IMG/VR virus record: IMGVR_UViG_3300023178_000043
Coordinates: 1 to 64,000 of that record
DNA: 64,000 bases
Source: a virus
Strand: one strand, 5' to 3'
In this document: in pieces, positions 12,633-17,180 of the stretch
Position numbering within the stretch: the stretch's first letter is position 1
How the letters are laid out: each line of letters begins with the position of its first letter
Notes under the pieces: model-generated
What the model was told of the DNA's origin: nothing
Database searches by the model: none
The model's input: only the letters and a program-made list of their open reading frames with translations
Translations under genes and position numbers: made by a program

Positions 12633-13436
12633 CTAGTTGTAACTAAAAAACTTTTCCGCCAATTTGTTATTTCCGTGTTTTTGATAATTGTAATTAAACA
12701 CATCCATATTAAATTGTGGTTGTGTAATAAAATTGTATTTTCCTTTATCTACTCGTTCTTCAAATACTAAGTCTTTATCTTTTGGATATGGGTTAGACTT
12801 GTATTCATCATACTTAAATATGATTTTTCTTGACTTTTTGTCAAGTGGGTAAATATATCTAAACATCAACCCACGTATTCTACTGATACCTTTGTGTTCG
12901 CAGAAATCATGTTCTAACCAAAATATTTTTTCTTTATTAGAAAATATAGCGTTCTCCTTACACAATTGTTTTGAACTTCTAGGATGTATTTTCTCTCCAG
13001 TTTGTTTATCCATATAAACATTGGTCTTAAAATGACCAAGGTATATAAAGTTTGACGCTTGATAGACGTACCCACATTTACCCATAATTCCATCTGCCAT
13101 TGTATAAATAAATTTCACAGACGGAAGATTTTTCTTTGACCAAGAGATTAGTTCTTTCATGGCTAACGAACCAAAATTATCTCCATTTTTTTCAGGCAAA
13201 AAACACATTTTACCAATTTCAAAATAATCTTTTGTTGTAATTTCAGGATGTTTATAGAATATCTTTTTAATAGTAGCTTTTGGCTGCGTTCCCCATCCAA
13301 GAGTTACAACTCCAACTAATCTTTCTTCTTCAAAGAATCCCAAATAATATTTGGTCAATCTTGGTAAAATTTTACTATAATGATAACTGTGAATAAAATC
13401 CACCGCTGTAGTTTTTGAAATTTGTTTAATAAACAT
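12633..13436 (-). CDS. Mom-like / GNAT-fold protein (267 aa)
   Basis: N-terminal HSYHYSKILPRLTKYYLGFF, the strand GVVTLGWGTQP and the later EIGKMCFL and GSLAMKEL segments resemble Mu Mom-type proteins, which are GNAT-fold enzymes that modify adenines in phage DNA to resist restriction. Length is near the 240-aa Mom. The C-terminal third is Lys-rich and not recognised. If the call is right, this is an anti-restriction gene; no partner Com-like gene is visible. Alternative: another GNAT acetyltransferase. Confidence 0.5.
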   Translation of the reverse strand: MFIKQISKTTAVDFIHSYHYSKILPRLTKYYLGFFEEERLVGVVTLGWGTQPKATIKKIFYKHPEITTKDYFEIGKMCFLPEKNGDNFGSLAMKELISWSKKNLPSVKFIYTMADGIMGKCGYVYQASNFIYLGHFKTNVYMDKQTGEKIHPRSSKQLCKENAIFSNKEKIFWLEHDFCEHKGISRIRGLMFRYIYPLDKKSRKIIFKYDEYKSNPYPKDKDLVFEERVDKGKYNFITQPQFNMDVFNYNYQKHGNNKLAEKFFSYN

Positions 13437-13438
13437 GG

Positions 13439-13846
13439 TTAGAATATATTTTTTCTAATTTCTACACCTATAACTATTGAGGGTAAGAATTCTGTTTTGC
13501 TTTCATACAACAAGTCGGGTGTTATATAAAAATCTGTGGTCTTAGACACAACGGCAGGTGCAACAAAGAATACACGATTGACATATCTGACCCAAGGTAG
13601 AACAGGATTGCTTTCATAGTTACCAACCAATCCTGCTTCAAGTCTTTGGTTTTCTGTAATCTTGTATTGCACACCACCATACGGTGAAATTCTGTAATCG
13701 CTGTTGTAGTAAACACCAGCAATCCAATTTGTTGATTCATACATTTCACATTCGGCACTAACGTGTGGGTGATAATAATTTAACTTATCCACCTCACCAA
13801 ATGTAAGATGCATTGTAGCCGCAAATGCTAAAAATAAATTACACAT
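13439..13846 (-). CDS. small secreted barrel-like protein (135 aa)
   Basis: A short hydrophobic leader (CNLFLAFAATMHLTF) precedes alternating polar and aromatic strands (NWIAGVYYNSDYRISPYGGVQYKI) ending in VEIRKNIF, with a terminal Phe as in outer-membrane barrels. Likely a small envelope barrel. It ends 2 nt before the Mom-like gene begins. Confidence 0.5.
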   Translation of the reverse strand: MCNLFLAFAATMHLTFGEVDKLNYYHPHVSAECEMYESTNWIAGVYYNSDYRISPYGGVQYKITENQRLEAGLVGNYESNPVLPWVRYVNRVFFVAPAVVSKTTDFYITPDLLYESKTEFLPSIVIGVEIRKNIF

Positions 13847-13860
13847 AATTTCTCCTGTTA

Positions 13861-13944
13861 TGCTTCGAGCGAGACTCGAACTCGCAAGCCCTATCGGGCG
13901 TCAGATTTTAAGTCTGATGTGTATACCTATTCCACCACCGAAGC
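13861..13944 (-). tRNA. tRNA-Leu (TAA)
   Basis: Long variable arm, acceptor GCTTCGG/TCGAAGC, loop CTTAAAA, discriminator A. Confidence 0.95.
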
Positions 13945-13949
13945 CTAAG

Positions 13950-14024
13950 TCTGGGTGGTAGGATTTGAACCTACGACTTCTGCCTCCCAAAGGCAGCGCT
14001 CTGACCGTGCTGAGCTACACCCAG
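13950..14024 (-). tRNA. tRNA-Pro (TGG)
   Basis: Acceptor CTGGGTG/CACCCAG, loop TTTGGGA, discriminator A. Confidence 0.95.
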
Positions 14025-14030
14025 ATAAAA

Positions 14031-14150
14031 TGTGTCACCCCCATCAAAGGTGCTGGTCCTCCCCGTAGGTACTCCGCTCGAGCCGTTTCACTACGCTTCA
14101 CAGAACAGAGGTTTGTGTGAGCGTCCTCCCTCTCCTCCGGTGATGACACA
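14031..14150 (-). ncRNA. structured RNA A in the tRNA array
   Basis: About 120 nt closed by TGTGTCA/TGACACA and a few further pairs (14139-14150 with 14031-14042, one A-G mismatch). Inside are a 9-bp arm ACGCTCACA / TGTG(A)AGCGT, a CCT-ACGGGG-AGG hairpin and GCTCGAGC. GC-rich compared with its surroundings and without an open frame. U-G pairs favour the minus strand, as for the flanking tRNAs. It is not a tRNA and matches no RNA family I recognise. Confidence 0.6.
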
Positions 14151-14161
14151 TATTTTACTAA

Positions 14162-14258
14162 TGAGACATAACACCGAAACATATCTAAGAAATCACGACT
14201 AATCTAGATATGGACAAACCTGTCGTGTCAGGTAAGAACCGGAATTACATATGTCTCA
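14162..14258 (-). ncRNA. structured RNA B in the tRNA array
   Basis: 97 nt closed by TGAGACATA/TATGTCTCA (9 bp, exact). Inside: hairpin CCTG-ACACGA-CAGG, an 8-bp arm CATATCTA/TAGATATG, and CCG/CGG holding both together as a three-way junction. The 3' end of its closing stem is 11 nt from the start of RNA A; tRNA-Thr lies 1 base on the other side. No coding frame. Confidence 0.6.
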
Positions 14259-14259
14259 G

Positions 14260-14332
14260 AGCCCCCGGTCAGAGTCGAACTGACGACCGCTCGCTTACAA
14301 GGCGAGTGCTCTGGCCACTGAGCTACGGAGGC
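14260..14332 (-). tRNA. tRNA-Thr (TGT)
   Basis: Acceptor GCCTCCG/CGGGGGC, loop CTTGTAA, discriminator T. Confidence 0.95.
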
Positions 14333-14345
14333 AATAATATTTTTG

Positions 14346-14540
14346 TTAGTATGGGGTATGTGGTCCATTGTGAATTGGACTATAATAATCTTTTTTTGTT
14401 CGTGACTTTAAACCATCCTTGTTAAGTTCGTTAATTAACATATTAGCTAATTCAACTGATTGTTTTGCAGCACTTCTACCTTCCATATCATTCTTAACTA
14501 GTTCAATAAACAATCTTGTTGCTACTTCATCACGATTCAT
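14346..14540 (-). CDS. small helical protein (64 aa)
   Basis: ATG at 14540 after AAAGGAG. The same frame extends upstream into tRNA-Gln and is not used. Predicted two-helix protein with a basic C-terminus. Not recognised. Confidence 0.6.
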   Translation of the reverse strand: MNRDEVATRLFIELVKNDMEGRSAAKQSVELANMLINELNKDGLKSRTKKDYYSPIHNGPHTPY

Positions 14541-14557
14541 AACCACTCCTTTGTTAG

Positions 14558-14630
14558 TTGCCCCGCTAGGGCTCGAACCTAGACTCTCATGATCCAAAGT
14601 CACGCGTGTTGCCAGTTACACCACGGGGCA
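14558..14630 (-). tRNA. tRNA-Gln (TTG)
   Basis: Acceptor TGCCCCG/CGGGGCA, loop CTTTGGA, discriminator A. U1-A72 is typical of tRNA-Gln. Confidence 0.94.
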
Positions 14631-14656
14631 ATCGCTTTTTACTACGTTCACATCAG

Positions 14657-14730
14657 TACGCCCTCAGGGAATTGAACCCCGGACCTTTCGGATATAAGCC
14701 GAATGCTCTAACCGACTGAGCTAAGGGCGC
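14657..14730 (-). tRNA. tRNA-Ile (TAT)
   Basis: Acceptor GCGCCCT/AGGGCGT, anticodon stem TTCGG/CCGAA with loop CTTATAT, so the anticodon is TAT, reading AUA directly. Bacteria normally read AUA with a lysidine-modified CAT anticodon. Confidence 0.9.
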
Positions 14731-14737
14731 ATATAAG

Positions 14738-14884
14738 TTATTTGTCTTCCATAGATTTAAGTTTATCTTCTAATTCAACTAATCGTTTGAGTGCTCCAGC
14801 TTTTGTCCACCCATCGTTGTGGTTTGAATTAGCTTCAATTCTTAATCTTTTAATTTCTTCTTTAAGTTCATCAATATCTTTCAC
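14738..14884 (-). CDS. small coiled-coil protein, GTG start (48 aa)
   Basis: A strong AGGAGG precedes GTG. Heptad-like charged helix (ELKEEIKRLRIEA, LKRLVELEDKLKSM). Lies between tRNA-Ile and tRNA-Gly. Not recognised. Confidence 0.55.
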   Translation of the reverse strand: MKDIDELKEEIKRLRIEANSNHNDGWTKAGALKRLVELEDKLKSMEDK

Positions 14885-14902
14885 AATGACCTCCTATGTA
14901 AG

Positions 14903-14974
<72 letters not shown>

Positions 14975-14978
14975 AAAA

Positions 14979-15066
14979 TGGTTATGGATTTTCTTACTGA
15001 CATATTCAGCGAGCCGATCCTAAACACGCTGCCTTGGACGCGGGTAATTAATTCCTTCCATAACCA
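14979..15066 (-). ncRNA. structured RNA C in the tRNA array
   Basis: 88 nt closed by TGGTTATGGA/TCCATAACCA (10 bp, exact), with an inner stem CAGCG/CGCTG. It fills the space between tRNA-Gly and tRNA-Glu exactly and has no T-loop or anticodon arm, so it is not a degenerate tRNA by eye. No coding frame. Confidence 0.55.
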
Positions 15067-15070
15067 CAAG

Positions 15071-15143
15071 TACCCCCACGGAGAATCGAACTCCGGTCTT
15101 CAGGATGAAAGCCTGATATCCTCGGCCACTAGACGATGGGGGC
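15071..15143 (-). tRNA. tRNA-Glu (TTC)
   Basis: Acceptor GCCCCCA/TGGGGGT, loop CTTTCAT, discriminator A. Confidence 0.95.
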
Positions 15144-15152
15144 GTATAACCA

Positions 15153-15371
15153 TTATTGTAGAGAAATTTCTTCCATTGCGGGTGGAGCCATCAAACCAGC
15201 TTCACCCATCGCTCTGATAATCTGAACGATTCCATCAAACAAAGTCATATACGCTGATGGTCTTATCAAGAGAAGAAGCGTCAGAATGGAAAAAATAAAC
15301 ATTATTGTAGCCCAAACATTTAAGATAATAACCTTATTACCAACGGTAACGCTTGGACGTTCATCTGACAT
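15153..15371 (-). CDS. 72-aa single-span membrane protein
   Basis: GAGGAG before the ATG. Residues 18-38 form a membrane span (WATIMFIFSILTLLLLI). The C-terminal half is an amphipathic helix followed by Pro and Met. First protein gene in the tRNA transcript. Function unknown. Confidence 0.65.
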   Translation of the reverse strand: MSDERPSVTVGNKVIILNVWATIMFIFSILTLLLLIRPSAYMTLFDGIVQIIRAMGEAGLMAPPAMEEISLQ

Positions 15372-15417
15372 AGTGCTCCTCAGACAAAGGTTAACCTATG
15401 TAACTGTCAAATAACTA

Positions 15418-15490
15418 TGGGCCCTCTGGGACTCGAACCCAGAACCTATTGGTTAAAAGCCAAGTGCTCTACCAGTTGAGCTAAAGGCCC
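15418..15490 (-). tRNA. tRNA-Lys (TTT)
   Basis: Acceptor GGGCCTT/AGGGCCC, loop CTTTTAA, discriminator A. One mismatch in the anticodon stem (C27/T43). First tRNA after the promoter at 15513-15541. Confidence 0.94.
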
Positions 15491-15512
15491 GTCTTTTTCA
15501 ATTCATACCTAT

Positions 15513-15557
15513 AATCTAACAACAAACTCACTGAAAGTCAAGATGTGAATTGTAACA
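15513..15557 (-). promoter_or_regulatory. promoter of the tRNA array
   Basis: TAGATT (15513-15518), 17 bp, TTGACT (15536-15541), 9 nt, TGTTACA (15551-15557). The second box is degenerate (CGTCACA, 15563-15569). Transcripts would start about 15 nt before tRNA-Lys. Confidence 0.85.
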
Positions 15558-15561
15558 AATG

Positions 15562-15579
15562 TTGTGACGCCACTCACAA
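15562..15579 (-). terminator. possible terminator behind the tmRNA
   Basis: TTGTGA-loop-TCACAA hairpin followed by CATTTGTT on the minus strand. It lies between the tmRNA and the next promoter; the U-tract is weak. The stretch 15580-15685 holds other short stems (GCCC/GGGC, CCGGTC/GACCGG) and no gene. Confidence 0.35.
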
Positions 15580-15685
15580 TAAACCCTAAAGTATCTTACT
15601 ACTCCTGTTCCGGTCGCCCTGTATGGGCACATCCCATAACCGAAAGCGATATGGACTAATGAGGCGTTTTACTGGGCATTTGTTA

Positions 15686-16015
15686 TGGAGATGGCGGGAG
15701 TCGAACCCGCGTCCGAACTTAACTACCTAAATTACTATCAACGCTGTAGGACAGTTAGGGGTACCAAGGTGTCCAACCTCACGGCCTTGTCTCGTCTATG
15801 CCGGTCACGGAATACATTCTTTGGTGTATACATCCGCACTTAGCTCTATTCCTAAGAGTCACCCGATTACATTTACTTCCCGTGTTTATCTTATCGGTAT
15901 CAGATAGTGGGAAGGGCTTAAGCAGCCATTAGTAAAGGTTCGTCAGTTACTTTTAAAGTATCAAACTAGCGTGTCAATCCAGTATCATTAAACCCGTCGA
16001 AACCAGTGCATCCCC
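15686..16015 (-). ncRNA. ssrA: tmRNA, tag VTDEPLLMAA
   Basis: Both tRNA-like ends are clear: GGGGATG at the 5' end pairs with CATCTCC at the 3' end, GGTTTCGACGGG follows the 5' stem, and the T-arm GCGGGTTCGACTCCCGC precedes the 3' end. CCA is not encoded. The tag frame lies at 15918-15950 and reads VTDEPLLMAA then TAA, similar in plan to the E. coli tag ANDENYALAA, with an AA end for protease recognition. 330 nt is a normal one-piece tmRNA length. It has its own promoter at 16037-16065. Phage tmRNAs are known but uncommon. Confidence 0.93.
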
Positions 16016-16094: not shown

Positions 16095-17180
16095 TTATTC
16101 TACACAGATTAATTGGTCACGATTCTGTCCGACACCAACCATTGACACCAAGCAACCTGTCTCATTGGAGATATAAGACACATAATCTTTTAATTCTTGT
16201 GGAAGGTCGTTCCAAGTCTTTTCATCGCCTGTGAGTTTCCAAGGTGAAAATTTAACCCATCCACTATCTTTGATATAAATTTGTTGTAGACAAGACAACA
16301 CATCCAACTTGGTAATTGCTAGATTTGTAATACCATTGACTTCACAAGCGTATCGTAGTTGGTCCATATCCAACCAACCCATTCTACGAGGACGACCAGT
16401 AGTTGCACCATACTCACCACCGGCTTCTCGTAACATTTCGGTCAGGTCATCATCTTTAAACTCAGTTGGAAATGGTCCCTCTCCAATTCTGGTTGTGTAT
16501 GCTTTGACCACACCAATCACAGCACTATCACCAAACATATGTAATGGTAGTCCGGTTCCTTGGGGAGCATAATTTGCAGTGCATGGTGATGATGTTACGT
16601 ATGGATAGGTTCCGAAATCAATATCAAGCATTGCCGCTTGTGCTCCTTCCATAAGTATCTTGTCACCATTTCTCTCTACATTTCGTAGAAGTTTACGAGT
16701 ATCGGTTATGAATGGTGCCAGTTTACCATAAGCAACATCATTGACAATTGACCCCAACTTGATTCCTTGTCGGTCATACTTGTCTCTGTATGCTGGACCA
16801 ATACCTTTACCTGTAGAACCCCACTTCGTTTTGTTTGCTTCGTCCTGAATTAGATGTTGGCGAGTAACTACGGTTGCATCCTTGGAAATAAAAAGTCGGT
16901 CAGTAAAATCAACACCCATATCTTCTAAGGCTTCAATTTCCTTAATTAGTTCTTCAGGGTTGACCACACACCCGTGTGTAATTACAGACTTACAATCCTC
17001 ACGAATAACGCCTGTGGGGAGTGAATGAGTAACATACTTTTTGTCACCCACACATACGGTATGACCAGCATTACTACCACCTTGGTAGCGCACAACCCAA
17101 TCGTATTCTTCACTCATATAGTCGGTAATTTTGCCTTTGCCTTCGTCGCCCCATTGGAGTCCTACAACAATATCAATCAT
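16095..17180 (-). CDS. purA: adenylosuccinate synthetase, short phage form (361 aa)
   Basis: Carries the family motifs in order: GLQWGDEGKGKITD (7-20, catalytic Asp12), GSNAGHT (35-41, catalytic His40), GSTGKGIGPAY (121-131), GTYPYVTSS (190-198), TGRPRRMGWLD (261-271) and TKLDVL (290-295) for the guanine base. It joins IMP and aspartate using GTP in AMP synthesis. About 70 residues shorter than bacterial PurA and closer in size to archaeal PurA and the phage PurZ of diaminopurine (Z) genomes; PurZ enzymes I know of have Ser in place of the catalytic Asp, so the Asp here argues for PurA. Overlaps the small gene upstream by 8 nt. Confidence 0.85.
   Translation of the reverse strand: MIDIVVGLQWGDEGKGKITDYMSEEYDWVVRYQGGSNAGHTVCVGDKKYVTHSLPTGVIREDCKSVITHGCVVNPEELIKEIEALEDMGVDFTDRLFISKDATVVTRQHLIQDEANKTKWGSTGKGIGPAYRDKYDRQGIKLGSIVNDVAYGKLAPFITDTRKLLRNVERNGDKILMEGAQAAMLDIDFGTYPYVTSSPCTANYAPQGTGLPLHMFGDSAVIGVVKAYTTRIGEGPFPTEFKDDDLTEMLREAGGEYGATTGRPRRMGWLDMDQLRYACEVNGITNLAITKLDVLSCLQQIYIKDSGWVKFSPWKLTGDEKTWNDLPQELKDYVSYISNETGCLVSMVGVGQNRDQLICVE

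Follow-up and report, generated by a model that had tools for sequence, protein, structure and literature searches.

Does the 97-nt sequence that directly follows tRNA-Thr(UGU) in a phage tRNA cluster encode an RNA of its own, or is it a spacer that happens to fold? The locus lies in a 64,000-nt stretch of DNA (hereafter, the window), which corresponds to positions 1 to 64,000 of IMG/VR record IMGVR_UViG_3300023178_000043. The complete record is 66.7 kb in length, derives from an uncultured virus, and contains 19 tRNA genes and one tmRNA gene, every one of them on the minus strand. We consider it fairly likely that the sequence, designated element B, is a gene within the phage tRNA operon that encodes a small non-coding RNA, and this RNA would be processed from the tRNA transcript, stable, and active in trans. 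The features of the immediate neighbourhood, in the order of the transcript, are as follows.

14259–14332, minus strand: tRNA-Thr(UGU), directly upstream of B in the transcript (ARAGORN, Rfam)
14162–14258, minus strand: RNA element B, 97 nt, predicted closed three-way junction (MFE, shuffles, in-context pair probabilities)
14250–14258, minus strand: 5' arm of the closing stem P1 of B, TGAGACATA
14174–14242, minus strand: short helix of B, CCGG (14242–14239) with TCGG (14177–14174), between P1 and P2 + P3
14218–14233, minus strand: hairpin P2 of B, ACCTG-ACACGA-CAGGT, element positions 26–41
14180–14212, minus strand: hairpin P3 of B, CATATCTA...TAGATATG, element positions 47–79
14162–14170, minus strand: 3' arm of the closing stem P1 of B, TATGTCTCA
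13949–14024, minus strand: tRNA-Pro(UGG), the next tRNA downstream of B (ARAGORN, Rfam)

The first-pass annotation had described a 97-nt sequence with a perfect 9-bp closing stem at 14162–14258, and the sequence is as described: the P1 arms as given at 14162–14170 (TGAGACATA) and 14250–14258 (TATGTCTCA) are 100% complementary over 9 bp and lie 79 nt apart, and the inner arms CATATCTA and TAGATATG are likewise perfectly complementary. Read as RNA from 5' to 3', B consists of UGAGACAUA (P1), the CCGG/UCGG helix, P2 (ACCUG/CAGGU), P3 (CAUAUCUA/UAGAUAUG), and UAUGUCUCA (P1). The 234 nt between tRNA-Thr(UGU) and tRNA-Pro(UGG) hold two foldable elements, B and then A, which are separated by an A/U-rich linker of 10 nt (A starts at 14151). 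The tight packing claimed earlier holds on the tRNA-Thr side, where the gap is 0–1 nt (claimed, 1 nt) because the end of the tRNA is placed at 14259 by ARAGORN and at 14260 by Rfam, whereas the distance to A is 10 nt and not 11 nt. The 66.7-kb record has B only once.

The first-pass annotation named no strand; the sense strand of B should be the minus strand, given that every RNA gene nearby sits there. Folded on this strand, B has an MFE of −26.2 kcal/mol (z = −2.2), a value equalled in 1 of 200 shuffles; the plus strand has an MFE of −23.9 with a z of −3.4, and folding energy alone therefore does not settle the strand. Pair probabilities were calculated by partition function on the minus strand for the whole Thr-B-A-Pro transcript, in which tRNA-Thr, B, A, and tRNA-Pro are each predicted to form their own domain. 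The probability is 0.97 for pairs 2–6 of P1 and weaker (0.44–0.82) at its outer and inner ends, 0.81–0.86 for P2, 0.89–0.91 for P3 (0.63 for the last pair), and 0.93–0.95 for three of the four pairs of the additional CCG/CGG helix, with 0.49 for its G-U pair. The proposed three-way junction with two inner hairpins is thus supported by the MFE, the shuffle test, and the pair probabilities in context. In 1 of 1000 dinucleotide shuffles of the B spacer, a perfect terminal stem reached 9 bp or more and began no more than 4 nt from the spacer 5' end. That the stem of B starts at the first nucleotide of the spacer and that its fold beats nearly all shuffles speak for an RNA gene; the modest minus-strand z and the better score of the plus strand argue against an RNA gene. 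Two further pairings are not claimed: the kissing interaction CACGA/UCGUG between P2 and P3 has a chance probability of 0.07 (5 bp in the loops) or 0.01 (6 bp, with the closing nucleotides), and an 8-bp complementarity between A and B would arise by chance in about one of six cases.

B fits none of the following known classes. Rfam searches with E values up to 10 returned only the flanking tRNAs and spurious matches on them, and no family fits B. It has neither a cloverleaf nor a T-arm, was missed by ARAGORN and by RF00005 at E = 10, and is not a tmRNA. No intrinsic terminator (GC-rich hairpin and T run) was found on the minus strand in 13800–15800. A riboswitch or leader is not indicated, as A and tRNA-Pro rather than a coding gene come next on the minus strand and no Rfam riboswitch matched. 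CUGAUGA, of the hammerhead ribozyme, is absent from the sequence of B, which had no Rfam match to that ribozyme; B also matches neither the GOLLD nor the ROOL covariance model. For a retron non-coding RNA, no PF00078 reverse transcriptase was found in the 66.7-kb record, which may be a fragment. Short open frames across the region (27–71 aa) overlap tRNAs or elements and show no sign of being genes.

Terminal stems of comparable length recur at other places in the cluster. Three such elements and a promoter-like site on the same strand are listed below.

14030–14151, minus strand: element A, 122 nt, 8-bp terminal stem ATGTGTCA/TGACACAT, 10 nt after B (11/1000 shuffles, fold)
14979–15066, minus strand: element C, 88 nt, perfect 10-bp terminal stem TGGTTATGGA/TCCATAACCA, 3 nt after tRNA-Glu (0/1000 shuffles)
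15553–15685, minus strand: element D, 133 nt, 9-bp terminal stem TAACAAATG/CATTTGTTA, 0 nt after the tmRNA (3/1000 shuffles)
15513–15541, minus strand: promoter-like site TTGACT-17-TAGATT, upstream of tRNA-Lys (consensus match, conservation)

The remaining cluster spacers of at least 60 nt have terminal stems of 4–5 bp, which is the level expected by chance. B may be regarded as an RNA gene because C, D, and A share its architecture and the other tested spacers have only these chance-level stems. In the loci compared, 179 distinct sequences that follow a tRNA or tmRNA gene included 5 with stems of 9–10 bp, namely B, C, D, the D copy of relative L012, and element X (see below). With all tRNAs counted, the enrichment relative to random places is modest; the strong part of the stem evidence is the clean split between spacers inside this cluster. 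A further spacer of 147 nt (11490–11344, minus strand), located between tRNA-Ile(GAU) and tRNA-Val, contains two strong hairpins and no terminal stem, and L012 has 2 nt at this place.

These data also bear on the reading that the fold of B is a chance structure in an unremarkable spacer. B is a single sequence with no covariation and a modest minus-strand z, and striking spacers were picked out of a window that has many, all of which would fit a chance fold. However, the anchored stem is reached in 1 of 1000 shuffles for B and in 0, 3, and 11 of 1000 for C, D, and A, respectively, all four lie in the same cluster, and stems of at least 9 bp occur at only ~0.5% of random phage positions (26 of 5000). 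We regard a chance fold as very unlikely.

The distribution of B in relatives is narrow. B is carried only by this record and by its 99.9% identical sibling, IMG/VR 3300020055_000159. Pattern scans of IMG/VR with the closing stem and with the P2 and P3 loop sequences returned, besides the sibling (L009), only places without tRNAs, and a scan of the same kind for element A returned one place, also without tRNAs. No independent homologue of B was found, and there is thus no covariation or conservation support for B itself. In two relatives, L012 and L093 (PurA identity of 79–80% and 85%, respectively), 2 nt lie between tRNA-Thr and tRNA-Pro in place of B and A; the tRNA order of L012 matches almost throughout and that of L093 matches around the place of B. 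Therefore, B (with A) was either gained here or lost there as a unit. At the place of element C, L012 likewise has 2 nt. Whole-unit presence or absence, which speaks for an RNA gene, is seen for B + A, missing in these two relatives, and for D, missing in one close relative and kept in two; of the two, D is the stronger comparative case. D copies were identified at L012:11509–11646 and, in a shortened form, at L093:11690–11777, with the inside kept in the three phages apart from a variable insert. D is cleanly absent in L011 (L011:11517), where the tmRNA runs directly into the sequence that elsewhere follows D. An origin of B from the tRNA-Met or tRNA-Tyr genes, which are absent here and present in L012, was rejected by position.

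Such a distribution would also be expected if B were a small mobile or decaying insertion, e.g. one with terminal inverted repeats, that landed by accident between two tRNA genes: clusters that otherwise match either have B whole or lack it entirely, and its termini form perfect 9-bp inverted repeats. Against this, it occurs only once in the 66.7-kb record, no target-site duplication is visible at its ends, neither an Rfam intron match nor the PF00078 reverse transcriptase was found in the record, and elements with other, unrelated termini also sit 0–1 nt after a tRNA. An accidental insertion is judged very unlikely.

The clusters of the relatives have several other features. L012 (12434–12764) and L093 (12522–12830) contain element F, a highly structured RNA of 310–330 nt between tRNA-Gln and tRNA-Thr; it is 88% identical between the two, with two double-sided compensatory pair changes, and had no Rfam or GenBank phage match. 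A small ORF occupies this place in the window. Between tRNA-His and tRNA-Ile of the window, 11614–11565 (minus strand) resembles the 5' half of a tRNA with the anticodon CCA (tRNA-Trp remnant), and L012 has tRNA-Tyr there. Genes for a Mom-family protein and adenylosuccinate synthetase are located in or beside the tRNA cluster (12633–13436 and 16095–17180, respectively, both on the minus strand), suggesting modified DNA.

A survey of all tRNA downstream regions identified a possible remote relative of B, element X, in L181. X resembles B in being ~100 nt long (100 nt in L181), in starting 1 nt after tRNA-Thr(UGU), and in having a perfect terminal stem (10 bp in L181). It was also found in L223, L230, and L227, which belong to a phage group separate from that of B, and it is not at the same place in L180 and L041. 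Between L181 and L227, X is 98% identical, as against 85–87% for nearby non-tRNA spacers and mostly 92–100% for the tRNAs, which points to selection on X. That an element of this size and closure, right after tRNA-Thr, is so conserved elsewhere is a further reason to take B as a candidate RNA gene. The tmRNA of the X phage group (L181:14151–14551, L223:5439–5812, and L230:5743–6116) has a very long tag according to ARAGORN, DEMSTMTFDSLMDFIGADYAVAA; that of the window is DEPLLMAA.

B and X both hold GTAATNCCGGTTC and ATTAGNCGT at an equal spacing of 32 nt, and their alignment score was reached by 0–2 of 500 shuffles and by 53 of 30000 random phage stretches. The two may be remotely related (p of about 0.002), which is suggestive but not proof. 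The B covariance model aligns to X weakly, the fold is not clearly shared, and no counterpart of the P2–P3 loop–loop pairing was seen in X. The elements also differ in the lengths on either side of the shared block, and their closing stems are unrelated in sequence. Searches of viral contigs for the motif pair returned only B, X, and contigs that have no tRNAs and seem to encode protein at this place; in the genome collection there were 64 raw matches. Apparent matches in Synechococcus phages B23 and Sf-FS3 lay inside coding genes. It is a possible but rather doubtful extension that B and X have diverged within a single, undescribed family of phage RNAs of ~100 nt whose place is directly behind tRNA-Thr(UGU). 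In such a family, the terminal stem would be kept as a structure while its sequence changed, and two motifs (GUAAUNCCGGUUC and AUUAGNCGU) would be conserved. On the same view, taken more broadly, the set of terminal-stem RNAs that tRNA processing releases would vary among tRNA-rich phages.

Conservation of the insides of D and X is informative on whether B is instead a structured spacer, in which the terminal stem would insulate the flanking tRNAs or position them for processing, and the sequence that it encloses would have no function of its own. In favour of such a spacer, A, B, C, and D share no sequence between their stem arms, whereas the stem behind a tRNA or tmRNA 3' end recurs. Yet three phages retain the interior of D, that of X is as conserved as the tRNAs, and relatives get by with 2 nt between these two tRNAs; moreover, at 9 bp the stem would be a short one for RNase III to cleave. 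A role confined to the stem is therefore considered unlikely, and B is probably one of several small non-coding RNAs that such phages make along with their tRNAs.

If B is an RNA gene, it would be transcribed on the minus strand together with the tRNAs, and the promoter-like site upstream of tRNA-Lys may be where this transcription starts. The site, a match to the consensus, is kept in L011 and L012; such matches are no more numerous than expected by chance, which argues against this reading. The 5' end of B would be made by removal of the tRNA-Thr trailer and its 3' end by a cut in the A/U-rich linker ahead of element A. The suggestion that B could be cut out by the enzymes that process the tRNAs is plausible from its setting, because of the 0–1-nt junction, the A/U-rich linker of 10 nt, and the conservation of a promoter-like site that lies upstream on the minus strand. 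P1 would seal both ends, keep B folded apart from the adjoining tRNAs, and shield it from exonucleases; as a consequence, a compact and stable RNA of ~97 nt with two hairpins would accumulate during infection and might act in trans, e.g. by binding host or phage RNA or protein. We infer these steps, from transcription to any function in trans, from the predicted fold and the gene arrangement. A cluster with at least four candidate RNAs built on one plan, a terminal stem at a tRNA or tmRNA 3' end, provides a simple rule for finding more, and the shared plan offers a way to test whether phages make non-tRNA RNAs via tRNA processing.

Among known systems, GOLLD and ROOL are non-coding RNAs of phages and prophages that are often located near tRNA islands and have no known function (PMC12286853), and GOLLD has been located within a tRNA cluster (PMC6582537). 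Both are highly elaborate, and GOLLD often exceeds 800 nt (PMC12286853), whereas B is 97 nt in length. tRNAs and pseudo-tRNAs share with B the tRNA array and a similar size, but B forms no cloverleaf. Since T4, phage tRNA operons have been known to encode small stable RNAs, with no function assigned to them. In T4 (AF158101), which offers the nearest parallel by layout, rnaD (119 nt) begins 1 nt after tRNA-Arg and rnaC (139 nt) lies 6 nt beyond rnaD. Both carry the annotation of small stable RNAs, and this same layout is a reason to view B as a candidate small stable RNA. Like B, rnaC and rnaD (species 1 and 2 RNA) belong to a phage tRNA operon, share the strand of its tRNAs, and lie a few nucleotides from a tRNA. 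They have no sequence similarity to B and do not match its covariance model; in addition, rnaD lacks a long terminal stem such as the 9-bp stem of B, and the 3' part of rnaC has a tRNA-like T-arm that B does not have. B thus appears to resemble rnaC and rnaD in setting and not in sequence family, the terminal stem being a feature of its own.
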